Source: Deltaproteobacteria bacterium (GTDB taxonomy: Bacteria; Myxococcota; Myxococcia; Myxococcales; 40CM-4-68-19). Taken from it: DNA of 64,000 nucleotides. Position numbers and translations under genes: made by a program. The stretch covers positions 1 to 64,000 of the forward strand of contig VBKL01000065.1 in the NCBI GenBank assembly GCA_005879805.1, given 5' to 3'. Shown here one piece after another: positions 19,207 to 24,295 of the stretch; within the stretch, counting starts at the first letter, position 1, and every line of letters begins with the position of its first letter. Under the pieces are notes generated by a model. That model saw only the letters and a list, made by a program, of their open reading frames with translations. It made no database searches and was not told where the DNA came from.

Positions 19207-20037
19207 TTACGCGCAAAAATCGGCGATCGCTCGCAGCGCGTCCGGGTGCGCCACGACGCCGTAGTGGTTGGCGTCGACCTCGACTGCCTGCGCCGAAGGC
19301 ACCGCGGCGAGGAATGCGTCGCGCAGCGCGGCTCCGACGATGAAACCGGTGCCCGGCAACAGGGGGCGTGCTGCTCGCACGAGCAGCACCGGCATGCGGA
19401 GCCATTTCCAGAAATGGCCGGCGTCGTGGGTGCTTCCATAGACCGCGTCCTCGAGCACCGCCTCCTTGGAGGTCCTGGAACGTACCCCGCCCGGGACCTC
19501 TTCTAGATCGTAGAGATAAGCGGGTCCCCACACCTCCCACGGGACCGCCGCGCCGATCTTGCGGATGGTTTCGCAATACACCTCGGCGCTGGGAAAGACG
19601 GCTCCCAGCCGCTCGACGGCCGCGCGGATGGGCGGGATGGCCGCCGCCTCCGGCACCCCGACGCCGTCGATGAGGACCAGGCGGCGGATGCGGCCGGCAT
19701 CGATCGCTGCGACTTCCATAGAGACGAAGGCGCCCATGGAATGCCCGACCAGGTCGAAGGACTCGAACCCGAGGAGGCGCGCCGCCGCGAGGACGTCCTC
19801 TGCGTGGCGCCGCCAGCCGTACGTGCCGGGAGCGGTCGGCGGGCTGAAGCCCCGGCCCCGCAAGTCCAGGGCGACGACGGGACGGCCCCGCGCTACCAGC
19901 GTGCGCGCGACGGAGTCGAAGCTGCGCGCGTTGGCGGAGAGGCCGGGTACGCAAAGCACGGGAACGCCCGTCCCGGCCCCATGGCGGAGAGCCCGCATCG
20001 TGCCGGAGGGAAGCTGCAAGTCGAGGGAGTCGGCCAT
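19207..20037 (-). CDS. alpha/beta hydrolase next to the PHA genes
   Basis: A 276-residue alpha/beta hydrolase. The HG-like oxyanion region is VPVLCVPGLSANARSFD, the nucleophile elbow is LVGHSMGAFVSME, and a C-terminal histidine lies in EVDANHYGVVAHPD. The enzyme should hydrolyse an ester, thioester or related bond. It is divergent from phaR: if ATG 20037 is the start, the PhaR-type palindrome at 20042-20056 lies exactly between the two genes. An upstream in-frame ATG at 20061 would put that palindrome inside the coding region. Its place suggests control by PhaR and perhaps a role in PHA oligomer turnover, which is inference. Confidence 0.75.
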   Translation of the reverse strand: MADSLDLQLPSGTMRALRHGAGTGVPVLCVPGLSANARSFDSVARTLVARGRPVVALDLRGRGFSPPTAPGTYGWRRHAEDVLAAARLLGFESFDLVGHSMGAFVSMEVAAIDAGRIRRLVLIDGVGVPEAAAIPPIRAAVERLGAVFPSAEVYCETIRKIGAAVPWEVWGPAYLYDLEEVPGGVRSRTSKEAVLEDAVYGSTHDAGHFWKWLRMPVLLVRAARPLLPGTGFIVGAALRDAFLAAVPSAQAVEVDANHYGVVAHPDALRAIADFCA

Positions 20038-20041
20038 CTGG

Positions 20042-20056
20042 TGTTGCGATGCAACA
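20042..20056. promoter_or_regulatory. PhaR-type operator 1 (hydrolase/phaR divergent region)
   Basis: TGTTGC-GAT-GCAACA is a perfect palindrome with a 3-base spacer, located between the divergent hydrolase and phaR starts. PhaR repressors of other bacteria bind TGC-N3-GCA-centred palindromes. The same pattern recurs twice at the phasin promoter, and 11 bases (20051-20061) are identical to 20572-20582. Confidence 0.7.
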
Positions 20057-20082
20057 TCCATGATAGTGCCCGCGGAGGAAAC

Positions 20083-20562
20083 GTGCTCATCAAGAAGTAT
20101 GGCAACCGCCGTCTCTACGATACCGTCCAGAGCCGATACATCACGCTCGAGGAGTTGGGCGGGCTCATCCGGGACGGCCAGGACGTGCGCGTCGCCGACG
20201 CCAGGACCGGCGAGGACCTGACCACCGCCACCCTGGCCCAGATCATCATCGAGGGACGCGGTGCGGCGCGCCTGCTGCCCGTTCCGCTCCTCGTGCAACT
20301 CATCCGCATGGGAGACGATGCGCTGGCGGAATTCCTCGGCCAGTACGTGACCTGGGCGCTGGAAGTGTACCTGCAGGCCCGGCAAGGATTGCAGACCATG
20401 GCTCCGTTCAATCCGCTGCTCGCTTTCGCTCCGGGCGGTCTTTCGCGTGCGTTCGGGACGGGCGCGCCGCCGCCCCGGCCGGCGCCGCCTTCCGACGAGG
20501 TTGCCGAGTTGCGTCGCGAGATCGAGGACCTGAAGAAAACCGTGAAGAAACGCCGCCGTTGA
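20083..20562 (+). CDS. phaR: polyhydroxyalkanoate synthesis regulator PhaR
   Basis: GTG 20083 follows GGAGG by 4 bases. The 159-residue protein opens with IKKYGNRRLYDTVQSRYITL, the conserved DNA-binding domain of PhaR. It then has a granule-binding region (QIIIEGRGAARLLPVPLLVQLIRMG, FLGQYVTWALEVYLQARQG). A Pro-rich linker and a short coiled tail (SDEVAELRREIEDLKKTVKK) close it. PhaR represses phasin and its own gene, and is released when it binds nascent PHA polymer. Operator-like palindromes flank this gene on both sides, which supports self-regulation. Confidence 0.93.
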   Translation: MLIKKYGNRRLYDTVQSRYITLEELGGLIRDGQDVRVADARTGEDLTTATLAQIIIEGRGAARLLPVPLLVQLIRMGDDALAEFLGQYVTWALEVYLQARQGLQTMAPFNPLLAFAPGGLSRAFGTGAPPPRPAPPSDEVAELRREIEDLKKTVKKRRR

Positions 20563-20577
20563 TGGTGCATCGCAACA
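20563..20577. promoter_or_regulatory. PhaR-type operator 2
   Basis: TGGTGC-ATC-GCAACA differs from operator 1 by one arm base. It starts at the stop codon of phaR and ends 6 bases before the -35 hexamer of the phasin promoter. Its right arm continues into GCAACATCCAT, the 11 bases shared with the phaR promoter region. Confidence 0.65.
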
Positions 20578-20583
20578 TCCATC

Positions 20584-20611
20584 TTGACAGCACGTCGGGC
20601 CGCGTTATGTT
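20584..20611 (+). promoter_or_regulatory. phasin promoter
   Basis: A perfect -35 TTGACA (20584-20589) and TATGTT (20606-20611, four of six matches to TATAAT) are separated by 16 bases. Operator 2 abuts the -35 side and operator 3 overlaps the -10, so a bound PhaR would block polymerase. The predicted transcript start, near 20618, lies about 53 bases before the phasin ATG. Confidence 0.65.
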
Positions 20612-20622
20612 GCGCTGCACAA
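20608..20622. promoter_or_regulatory. PhaR-type operator 3, overlapping the phasin -10
   Basis: TGTTGC-GCT-GCACAA keeps the TGTTGC left arm and GCA of the right arm. Its centre lies 45 bases from that of operator 2, and it covers the -10 element of the phasin promoter. Confidence 0.55.
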
Positions 20623-20670: not shown

Positions 20671-20937
20671 ATGGCGGAGTTCAAGGCGCAGGTGGAGCAG
20701 GCGGCGAATTCGTTCGAGAAGGCGGTCTCGGAGCAGACCACCAGGTTCGAGGCGGCGGTCTCGGAATGGACCAAGCTGCAGAGCAAGGGGTTCGCGCAGG
20801 CGAACGCGATCTTCGAGGACTTCGCCCGCGTGGCCCGCGAGCAGATCGCTTTCGCCGATCAGCTGGGCGGCGAGTGGCGCAAGGTCGTTCTCGCCTCGGC
20901 GAAGAGCGCCAGCGAAGTTCTTGCGCCAAAGGCGTAG
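20671..20937 (+). CDS. phaP: phasin (PHA granule-associated protein)
   Basis: An 88-residue, nearly all-helical amphipathic protein without Cys (AEFKAQVEQAANSFEKAVSE, TRFEAAVSEWTKLQSKGFAQ, FEDFARVAREQIAFADQLGGEW), as in short phasins that coat PHA granules. AAGGAG lies 6 bases before ATG 20671. Position directly after phaR and behind a promoter framed by PhaR-type operators is typical of phaP. It is shorter than many phasins (about 110-190), but the amphipathic pattern is complete. The assignment rests mainly on context. Confidence 0.8.
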   Translation: MAEFKAQVEQAANSFEKAVSEQTTRFEAAVSEWTKLQSKGFAQANAIFEDFARVAREQIAFADQLGGEWRKVVLASAKSASEVLAPKA

Positions 20938-21054: not shown

Positions 21055-21801
21055 TTGGCTGCAAAGCTGGAAGGAAGAGTCGCGCTCGTCACGGGCGCGT
21101 CGCGAGGACTGGGACGTGCCATCGCGCTGAAGCTCGCGGAGGAAGGCGCTCGGGTCGCGCTCAACTACCGCAGCGGTGAGCTCGAAGCGCGACAGGTCGC
21201 GGACGAGATCATCGCGCGAGGCGGGACGACCTTCCTCCTCCGCGGGGACGTGAGCGTGAAGGAGGAAGCGCGCGCCCTCGTCGCCAAGACCATCGAGCAC
21301 TGGGGACGTCTCGACATCCTCGTCAACAACGCCGGGATCACCCGCGACAAATCGCTCAAGAAGCTCACCGACGACGACTGGACCGAGGTCATCGCCGTCA
21401 ACCTGAACAGCGTGTACTACTGCACGAGCGCGGCGATGAAGGCGATGTCCGATCAGAAGTTCGGGCGCATCGTCAACATCAGCTCGTTCGTCGGCCAGGC
21501 GGGGAACTTCGGCCAGACCAACTACTCGGCCTCGAAGGGCGGCATCATCGCCTTCACCAAGAGCGCCGCCATCGAGCTCGCCAAGTTCAACATCACCGTC
21601 AACGCCATCGCTCCGGGCTTCACCGAGACCGACATGCTCGCCAAGGTCGCCGAGCCGGTCAGGCAGCAGATCCTGGCGAAGATCCCGATGGGCAGATTCG
21701 GCAAGCCGGAAGAGATCGCGAAGGCCGTGGCGTTCCTCTGCACCGACGGCGACTACATCACCGGCCAGCAGATCAACGTCAACGGCGGCGTCTACATGTG
21801 A
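21055..21801 (+). CDS. phaB: acetoacetyl-CoA reductase (FabG-like short-chain dehydrogenase)
   Basis: A 248-residue classical short-chain dehydrogenase. TGASRGLGRAIA binds NADPH, NNAG is present, and the catalytic set is Ser in NISSFVG, Tyr and Lys in YSASKGG. PGFTETDML and the terminal GQQINVNGGVYM are characteristic. TTG 21055 has AGGAGG 8 bases upstream. In this PHA locus it should reduce acetoacetyl-CoA to (R)-3-hydroxybutyryl-CoA. FabG (3-oxoacyl-ACP reductase) is the paralogous alternative; context favours PhaB. Confidence 0.88.
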   Translation: MAAKLEGRVALVTGASRGLGRAIALKLAEEGARVALNYRSGELEARQVADEIIARGGTTFLLRGDVSVKEEARALVAKTIEHWGRLDILVNNAGITRDKSLKKLTDDDWTEVIAVNLNSVYYCTSAAMKAMSDQKFGRIVNISSFVGQAGNFGQTNYSASKGGIIAFTKSAAIELAKFNITVNAIAPGFTETDMLAKVAEPVRQQILAKIPMGRFGKPEEIAKAVAFLCTDGDYITGQQINVNGGVYM

Positions 21802-21812
21802 AAGAGGGAACC

Positions 21813-22199
21813 GTGCCCTTTGCATTCGATTTGATGGGAAAGTTGCGCAAGGCCCGCGACCAGGGAATGGAGTCGTGGGCCAAAACAGCCATCCAGCTCA
21901 CCAGCTCGGAGCCGTACGCGAGAGCGAACTACCTGCTCTCGCAGCCCTGGCTCATCGCCGCAGGCATCTTCCGCAAGTCGCGCGAGAAGGCGATGTCGCA
22001 GGTGCTCGCCCAGCTCAACATGCCTTCCCGTGAGGAGGTGCTGGGGCTCTCCCAGCGCCTCACCCACATCGAGATGGTGCTCGACGATCTGGGCGCGGCG
22101 ATCGAGGCGGCGCGGTCCGCACCCGCCGAGCCCGAAGCTCCCCGCGCGGCGCAGGGGAACGGTGCACGCGTCCGCCCGCTCGCGGCCGGAGAGGGATGA
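21813..22199 (+). CDS. phaE/phasin-like helical protein preceding phaC
   Basis: A 128-residue helical protein (AFDLMGKLRKARDQGMESW, YARANYLLSQPWLIAAGIFR, SREEVLGLSQRLTHIEMVLDDL). The last part (SREEVLGLSQRLTHIE) resembles the C-terminal regulatory segment of class III synthase subunit PhaE and poly(R)-hydroxyalkanoic acid synthase-associated proteins. GTG 21813 follows GAGGGAACC; an upstream GTG at 21798 overlaps phaB. Its stop overlaps the start of phaC (ATGA), so the two are translationally coupled. It probably forms a complex with PhaC; the exact class is uncertain. Confidence 0.65.
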   Translation: MPFAFDLMGKLRKARDQGMESWAKTAIQLTSSEPYARANYLLSQPWLIAAGIFRKSREKAMSQVLAQLNMPSREEVLGLSQRLTHIEMVLDDLGAAIEAARSAPAEPEAPRAAQGNGARVRPLAAGEG

Positions 22200-23075
22200 G
22201 CATGGCCGGACCCCAGGGAGTCTCCGGCGGCTTCGCTGACGCCTTCGAGCGGCTTTCCCTCGCCGCCCGCAACGCGCTCAAGGTCAGCACCACCCGGGCG
22301 ACGATCGGGAACACCCGGACCGGAGGACAGCGATCTCGGGCTCGAAGATTACGTGCTCGAGTACCTGCCCCGCGCGCTCCGGAAGGTGAAGGCGGTCTCG
22401 GGATCGAGCTCCTTCACCGTCCTCGGATGGTGCATCGGCGCCATCCTCTCGACGCTCTACGCCGCGCTCCGGCCGGACGACGGGATCGAAAACCTCATCC
22501 TCCTCACCGCGCCGCTCGACTTCGCCAACAAGGAAGCGATCAAGCTCTCCCGCATGACCGCGGAGCGCAATTTCGACGTCGATCGCATGCTCGACGCCCA
22601 CGGAAACATGCCGGCCGAGTTGCTCGACTACGGCGCGAAGATGCTCAAGCCGGTGGAGAACTTCATCGGCAGCTACGTGCGGCTCTTCGACAACCTCCAC
22701 GATCCGAAGGTCGTCGATTCCTGGCACGCCATGAACACCTGGGTGTCGGACGGCATCCCGATGGCGGCCCGGACGTACCGCCAGCTGGTGGTCGAGTTCT
22801 ACCGCGAGAACCGGCTGATGAACGGCACCCTGTCGCTGCGGGGCGAGAAGGTGGATCTCGGCCGGCTGCGCGCGAACCTGCTCGACGTCATCGCGGAGGA
22901 CGACCACATCACGCCGCCTTGCCAGTCGGAGACGGTGGTCGAGAAGGTGGGCAGCGCCGACAAGACGTTGCTGCGGGTTCCCGGCGGCCACATCGGAATG
23001 ATGGTGGGCGGCGCGGCCGCCCGGTCGACGTGGCCGAAGATCGAAGGCTGGCTTTCGGCGCGATCGAAGGGGTAG
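22196..23075 (+). pseudogene. phaC: class III-like PHA synthase phaC with internal frame-breaking deletion
   Basis: The C-terminal 240 residues are clearly PhaC: GLEDYVLEYLPRALRKVK, lipase-like box GWCIGAI with the catalytic Cys, TAPLDFANKEA, MNTWVSDGIPM, Asp in VIAEDDHITPP and His in GGHIGMMVG. The N-terminal 40 residues (from ATG 22196, FERLSLAARNALKV, TTRATIGNT) belong to the same family. Between them about 60 residues expected in the alpha/beta core are missing, and the frame changes near 22310. The junction word CCCGGACCG fits both flanks (NTRTE and PGPED coding), as expected for a deletion between 9-base direct repeats or a collapsed assembly. As written the gene cannot make a synthase. 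It would use (R)-3-hydroxyacyl-CoA to make the polymer. Confidence 0.8.
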
Positions 23076-23080
23076 TGCGT

Positions 23081-24295
23081 TCAGGAGCCGCGAATGAAGC
23101 TGGCGATGCGGGGAGCGATCTCCTCTCGCCAGCGCCTTCCGCTGAAGACTCCGTAGTGGCCCGCGCCGGACTGCACGTACTCTTGCCGGCGTCCCGCGGG
23201 GATCGACGTGCAGAGATCGTGCGCCGCAAAGGTCTGGCCGGCCCCGGTGATGTCGTCCTTCTCGCCCTCGATGGTGAACAGCGCCGTCGCCTCGATGGCC
23301 GTGGGGCGGACCGGCCGCTTTCCGCGCCAGACCATCTCGCCGCGCGCCAGATCGTGGCGCTGGAAGACGCTGGCGATGGTCTGCAGGTAGTACTCGGCGG
23401 GCAGGTCCATCACCGCCAGGTAGTCGTCGTAGAAGCGCCGCACGACCTCCGCGCTCTCTTCGTCGCCCGCGAGGAGGTCGCGGTACAGGCGGCGGTGGGC
23501 ATCGGCGTGGCGGCCGACGTTGAGCGAGACGAACGCGGTGAGTTGCAAGAAACCCGGATAGACCTTGCGCAAGAAGCCCGGCTCGCCGGCCGGGACGCGC
23601 TGGATGGCCGTCATCTCGAACCAGCGCAACGAGCGGGTGGTCGCGACGCGGTCGACCTGCGTCGGGTTCTTGCGCGCGTCGATGGGCCCGGCCATGAGCG
23701 TCATGCTCCGCGGCGTCGCGGGATCCCGATCCTCGGCGAGGAGCGAGACGGCCGCGAGGACCGGAACGCTCGGCTGGCACACCGCGATGACATGCACGTC
23801 GGGTCCCAGGGCCTGCAGGAACCGCCGCACGAGATCGACGTAGTCGTCCAGATCGAACCGGCCCGCCGAGAGCGGGACGAGGCGGGCATCGATCCAGTCG
23901 GTGAGGTAGAGGTCGTGATCGGGCAGGAGCCGCTGGACGGTGTCGCGCAAGAGCGATGCGTGGTGGCCCGAGAGCGGAGCGACCACCAGCACCTTCGGGT
24001 CGCGGCGGCGCGCGTCGCGCTCGAAGTGGACCAGATTGCAGAACGGCGTGCCCAGGCAGACCACTTCCCGCACCGCGACGGTACGGCCGTCGATCCCGGT
24101 CGTCTCGAGCCCGAAGGGCGGCTTCGCGTAGCTGCGCGTCGCCCTCTCGAGAAGCTCGCTCGCCGACGCGACCGACCGGCCGAAAAGCGTTCCCGCTCCG
24201 GGGAAGGCGGGGTGCGACCAGAGGGCCTGCACCGCCGAGGCCCACGAGTTGACCGGAGCAACCATCGCGCGGCCGAGGCTGTAGGAACCGTACAT
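23081..24295 (-). CDS. phaZ: intracellular PHB depolymerase
   Basis: A 404-residue soluble protein that matches intracellular poly(3-hydroxybutyrate) depolymerases of the PhaZ1 type. It has no signal peptide. The nucleophile region VHVIAVCQPSVPVLAA has Cys173 in place of the usual lipase Ser, as in this family. Further marks are YLTDWIDARLVPLSAGRF, MTLMAGPIDARKNPT, the Asp in EGEKDDITGAG, and the His in SGAGHYGVFSG. It degrades native granules to hydroxybutyrate units. It is convergent with phaC, only 5 bases apart, and divergent from the KAS III-like gene. Confidence 0.93.
   Translation of the reverse strand: MYGSYSLGRAMVAPVNSWASAVQALWSHPAFPGAGTLFGRSVASASELLERATRSYAKPPFGLETTGIDGRTVAVREVVCLGTPFCNLVHFERDARRRDPKVLVVAPLSGHHASLLRDTVQRLLPDHDLYLTDWIDARLVPLSAGRFDLDDYVDLVRRFLQALGPDVHVIAVCQPSVPVLAAVSLLAEDRDPATPRSMTLMAGPIDARKNPTQVDRVATTRSLRWFEMTAIQRVPAGEPGFLRKVYPGFLQLTAFVSLNVGRHADAHRRLYRDLLAGDEESAEVVRRFYDDYLAVMDLPAEYYLQTIASVFQRHDLARGEMVWRGKRPVRPTAIEATALFTIEGEKDDITGAGQTFAAHDLCTSIPAGRRQEYVQSGAGHYGVFSGRRWREEIAPRIASFIRGS

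Follow-up and report, generated by a model that had tools for sequence, protein, structure and literature searches.

Candidate PhaR operators beside phaR and a phasin-like gene in a probable myxobacterial PHA locus

A PHA locus with a PhaR-family regulator

The window analyzed here, a stretch of 64,000 nucleotides, carries a PHA locus in which phaR (20083..20562, + strand) adjoins phaB-, phaE-, phaC-, and phaZ-like genes. phaR has a GTG start with a Shine-Dalgarno-like GGAGG upstream, and its product matches the PHB_acc_N profile (PF07879; E 4e-26, 91.2 bits against a cut-off of 25); the scores for TIGR01848 (E 3e-28, 98.2 bits) and PHB_acc (PF05233, 23.3 bits) lie below the respective cut-offs of 109.45 and 27. 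Of the 59 relatives searched, 7 carry PhaR orthologues, 56–77% identical. There is also a second PhaR-family gene (G000:C134:35911-36177), whose product is about 46% identical to PhaR over the N-terminal residues 2–90; paralogues of this type occur in nearly all 59 relatives, including several without a strong class III phaC match. Divergent from phaR lies a gene for an alpha/beta hydrolase (19207..20037, − strand, ATG at 20037; Abhydrolase_1, E 8.5e-20), whose relatives of solved structure are generic alpha/beta hydrolases only (7al5 and 3bwx).

The gene that follows phaR on the same strand (20671..20937, +) encodes 88 amino acids and is 60% identical to the gene in the same place in the relative G010. 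The earlier note had called it a phasin. Its position, its size, and a weak family similarity agree with this naming, but the product was not matched by the phasin profiles PF05597 and PF09361, and the gene of one syntenic relative gave only a weak Phasin_2 match below the cut-off (E 7e-4). From its position, size, and weak similarity, we regard the product as phasin-like. Next come a phaB or acetoacetyl-CoA reductase-like gene (21055..21801, +), and a phaE-like gene (21798..22199, +), which shows a very weak PHA_synth_III_E match and resembles the gene beside phaC in the relative G003. The class III phaC (22202..23075, +) is interrupted and covers only positions 103–350 of TIGR01836. It is 69% identical to the G003 PhaC over the last 254 residues. 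Relative to G003, where phaC is intact, it lacks about 70 codons and changes frame near 22310, with the GWCIGA active-site region retained in the downstream frame. The interruption may be either a real deletion or an assembly error. On the opposite strand, phaZ encodes an intracellular PHB depolymerase (23081..24295, −; TIGR01849, E 5e-166), and no PhaR consensus site precedes it. No plasmid match to the locus was found.

Three palindromes, the phasin promoter, and their rarity in the genome

Three palindromes of PhaR type reported in the earlier note were confirmed by a sequence check, and we refer to them as operators 1–3. Operator 1 (20042..20056, TGTTGCGATGCAACA; TGTTGC-GAT-GCAACA), with perfect 6-bp arms around a 3-bp center, lies as the note had placed it, within the 45 bp that separate the start codons of phaR and the divergent hydrolase gene. 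Operator 2 (20563..20577, TGGTGCATCGCAACA; TGGTGC-ATC-GCAACA) directly adjoins the phaR stop codon on its 3′ side, and 6 bp separate its end from the −35 box of a phasin promoter, TTGACA-N16-TATGTT (20584..20611, +; −35 at 20584–20589 and −10 at 20606–20611). Operator 3 (20608..20622, TGTTGCGCTGCACAA; TGTTGC-GCT-GCACAA) shares four bases with the −10 box TATGTT, and the register of the two operators at this promoter is 45 bp. The promoter was thus found as described, with operator 2 upstream of it; the idea that two palindromes flank it holds only in part, since operator 3 overlaps the −10 box rather than standing clear of it. Inspection by eye revealed no clear sigma-70 promoter before phaR or the hydrolase gene. 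An 11-base word shared by the two promoter regions, GCAACATCCAT, is indeed present at 20051–20061 and 20572–20582, though the motif itself accounts for 6 of the 11 bases. Because the non-motif remainder, TCCAT, is not kept in G003 or G010, we assign no separate role to this word.

To judge how unusual the palindromes are, the 5.02-Mb genome was scanned with each pattern and with its reverse as a control. The form TGNTGC-N3-GCA, put forward earlier as a marker to be sought genome-wide, proved not to be specific, with 228 stranded matches against 142 for the reversed control. A tighter pattern, TTGCN3GCAA, does not single out the locus either (70 places against 58). We also used TKNTGCRNYGCANMA, the 15-bp core of the published Ralstonia eutropha PhaR palindrome, which was derived independently of the present genome. 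All three palindromes match it exactly, and it occurs at only 4 places in the 5.02 Mb (reversed control, 3), 3 of which are those described here within 581 bp. Given about 3 background occurrences in every 5 Mb, the number expected by chance in 581 bp is ~0.0004. No further consensus site lies within the window. The fourth exact place, C166:14295, is on another contig, with no recognized PHA gene beside it. A wider PhaR regulon in this genome was considered and set aside, as neither C166:14295 nor the set of one-mismatch sites (79 places; control, 66) rises above background. About 20 further candidate sites were inspected; many fall within coding frames, and none adjoins a recognized PHA gene.

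Conservation across PhaR loci

A scan of named genomes yielded 80 PhaR loci, almost all of which bear the label Myxococcota, Myxococcales, or Deltaproteobacteria; since they were picked by PhaR similarity and are related by descent, they do not amount to 80 independent observations. A consensus site lies within 200 bp of phaR in 73 of these loci, within 200 bp upstream of the gene in 54, and after its stop codon in 53. The phaR flanks (31 kb) hold 120 sites, or 3.84/kb, compared with 78 sites, or 0.11/kb, in the remaining 702 kb of the loci, and dinucleotide shuffles of the flanks gave no sites. Of the 58 sites located downstream of phaR, 43 have 6–9 bp between their end and a TTGAC −35 box. 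Most relatives share the placement of operator 2 with respect to TTGAC and the phaR stop codon. A second operator after the −35 box, allowing up to 2 mismatches, is absent from 35 of the 43 such phasin promoters examined. The two-operator form recurs in G003 and G010, two relatives of the same family, where the −35 box, spacer length, and −10 box are as in the window and the operator register is 45–46 bp. In G003, the spacing of operators and promoter equals that of the window to the base, with the upstream operator off consensus at one end position, and the arrangement is kept even though the phasin-phaE-phaC cluster and phaR are on different contigs. That PhaR controls its own gene, as had been predicted, is generally supported by the upstream sites in 54 of the 80 loci, but G003 and G010, the two nearest relatives with PhaR, have no site directly upstream of phaR.

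Two side observations came from the same loci. In L051–L130, 0–260 bp past the phaR stop codon, an almost unvarying PhaR site placed 6–9 bp before TTGAC precedes short genes of about 85–108 amino acids that the phasin profiles mostly do not detect; they are likely an under-annotated group of myxobacterial phasins. L105, L115, and L117 have 9–11 consensus sites per about 10 kb, a density that suggests a much wider local PhaR regulon.

The hydrolase is less widely shared: of the 59 relatives searched, just two have an orthologue, G003 (64% identical) and G036 (51%). In G003, it adjoins the phasin-phaE-phaC cluster, and between it and the divergently transcribed phasin-like gene lie two PhaR-type sites, an exact match and one with a single mismatch. 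Around the G036 orthologue, the 10 kb inspected held no consensus site, and no recognized PHA gene was seen nearby. The earlier proposal that the hydrolase belongs to the PHA regulon therefore gains from G003 and loses from G036 and the scarcity of orthologues. Since the gene stands beside PHA genes in two genomes of differing gene order, the tie to PHA is suggestive, and the hydrolase as a PhaR target is plausible but weakly supported.

Proposed control by PhaR and comparison with known systems

Motif identity, genome-wide rarity, and the footprint across the 80 loci lend strong support to operators of PhaR type at the promoters of phasin and phaR. We consider it very probable that the three palindromes are PhaR operators and that PhaR holds down the phasin-like gene, and probably its own gene, for as long as it is not titrated by PHA granules. 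Without PHA, PhaR, probably as one dimer per palindrome, would occupy both operators bracketing the phasin promoter; placed just upstream of the −35 box and over the −10 box, it would keep RNA polymerase off this promoter. At operator 1, binding would restrain phaR itself and perhaps the hydrolase gene. Once PHA granules form, PhaR would leave the operators for the granule, allowing production of the phasin-like protein, which would coat the granule. For binding, repression, and release by PHA, this scheme draws on the PhaR literature; the sites, their rarity, their conservation, and the promoter geometry come from the present analysis. A more speculative version, which we regard as rather unlikely, is that PhaR in myxobacteria controls the phasin-like gene mostly from a single operator, 6–9 bp before the −35 box, that this position could serve for contact with RNA polymerase, to repress or to activate, instead of simply occluding the promoter, and that the regulon has recruited a lineage-specific alpha/beta hydrolase.

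Other explanations of the palindromes deserve consideration. They may be PhaR operators from which PhaR activates, rather than represses, some promoters. The near-fixed position of 43 of the 58 sites, ending 6–9 bp before TTGAC, would suit contact with RNA polymerase, 35 of the 43 phasin promoters examined have no second operator (up to 2 mismatches) after the −35 box, and R. eutropha PhaR activates phaP3 (PMC12849132). However, the second operator covering the −10 box in the window and its family suits repression, and R. eutropha phaP1 and Sinorhizobium meliloti phaP1 and phaP2, with sites beside the −35 box, are repressed; we regard activation as improbable. It seems still less probable that the sites are bound by the paralogue G000:C134 instead of the window's PhaR. 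The N-terminal region of PhaR is shared by the paralogue (46% identity over residues 2–90), which occurs in nearly all relatives, but in several relatives that have only the paralogue, such as most of family f6, consensus sites are few and do not exceed the reversed control, and most of the 80 loci have sites at the phaR gene itself. We give almost no weight to chance, or to RNA hairpins or terminators. Operator 2 does lie immediately 3′ of phaR, where terminators occur, but its arms are of 6 bp with no T run, and the motif is conserved as DNA at a near-fixed distance from the −35 box, also at the G003 phasin gene without phaR upstream; the enrichment in the genome and in the flanks of the 80 loci goes far beyond chance.

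Repression by PhaR, our preferred reading, recalls two characterized systems. Operators shortly before the −35 box and near the start site are already known from Ralstonia and Sinorhizobium, and the present analysis documents this familiar type of arrangement across myxobacteria. It extends the PhaR operator and promoter geometry from alpha- and betaproteobacteria to many loci labelled as myxobacteria; no report of either in myxobacteria was found in the open literature searched. The rule of TKNTGCRNYGCANMA 6–9 bp before TTGAC can also serve to find phasin-like genes that profiles miss, such as the 88-amino-acid gene of the window.

The palindrome deduced for R. eutropha PhaR is YTKNTGCRNYGCANMAR, whose core is matched by operators 1–3; at phaP1, PhaR represses from operators immediately 5′ of the −35 box and around the start site, and it is sequestered by PHA granules (PMC12849132). 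Common to the PhaR-phaP1 system and the window are the TKNTGCRNYGCANMA core, a PhaR family regulator, a phasin target, and a pair of operators, the first immediately 5′ of the −35 box and the second around the −10 box or start site. Unlike R. eutropha, the window has a probable Myxococcota host, as judged from its relatives, class III phaEC, a possible hydrolase target, and a phaR gene that immediately precedes the phasin-like gene and has an operator at its stop codon. In S. meliloti, PhaR sites that operators 1–3 resemble have been proven by EMSA and mutation, for example GTTTGTTGCGCTGCACAAGAA at phaZ, and mutated palindromes lost PhaR binding (PMC12542648). This phaZ site includes TGTTGCGCTGCACAA, the 15-mer identical to operator 3 of the window. 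S. meliloti PhaR (AniA) has the same core palindrome, YGCRNYGCR, and the phaP1 and phaP2 promoters, like the window phasin promoter, carry two copies, flanking the −35 box. The two systems differ in that phaZ has a proven site in S. meliloti but no consensus site in the window, whereas the phaR/phbAB region of S. meliloti is bound only weakly and the region upstream of phaR in the window has a perfect site.
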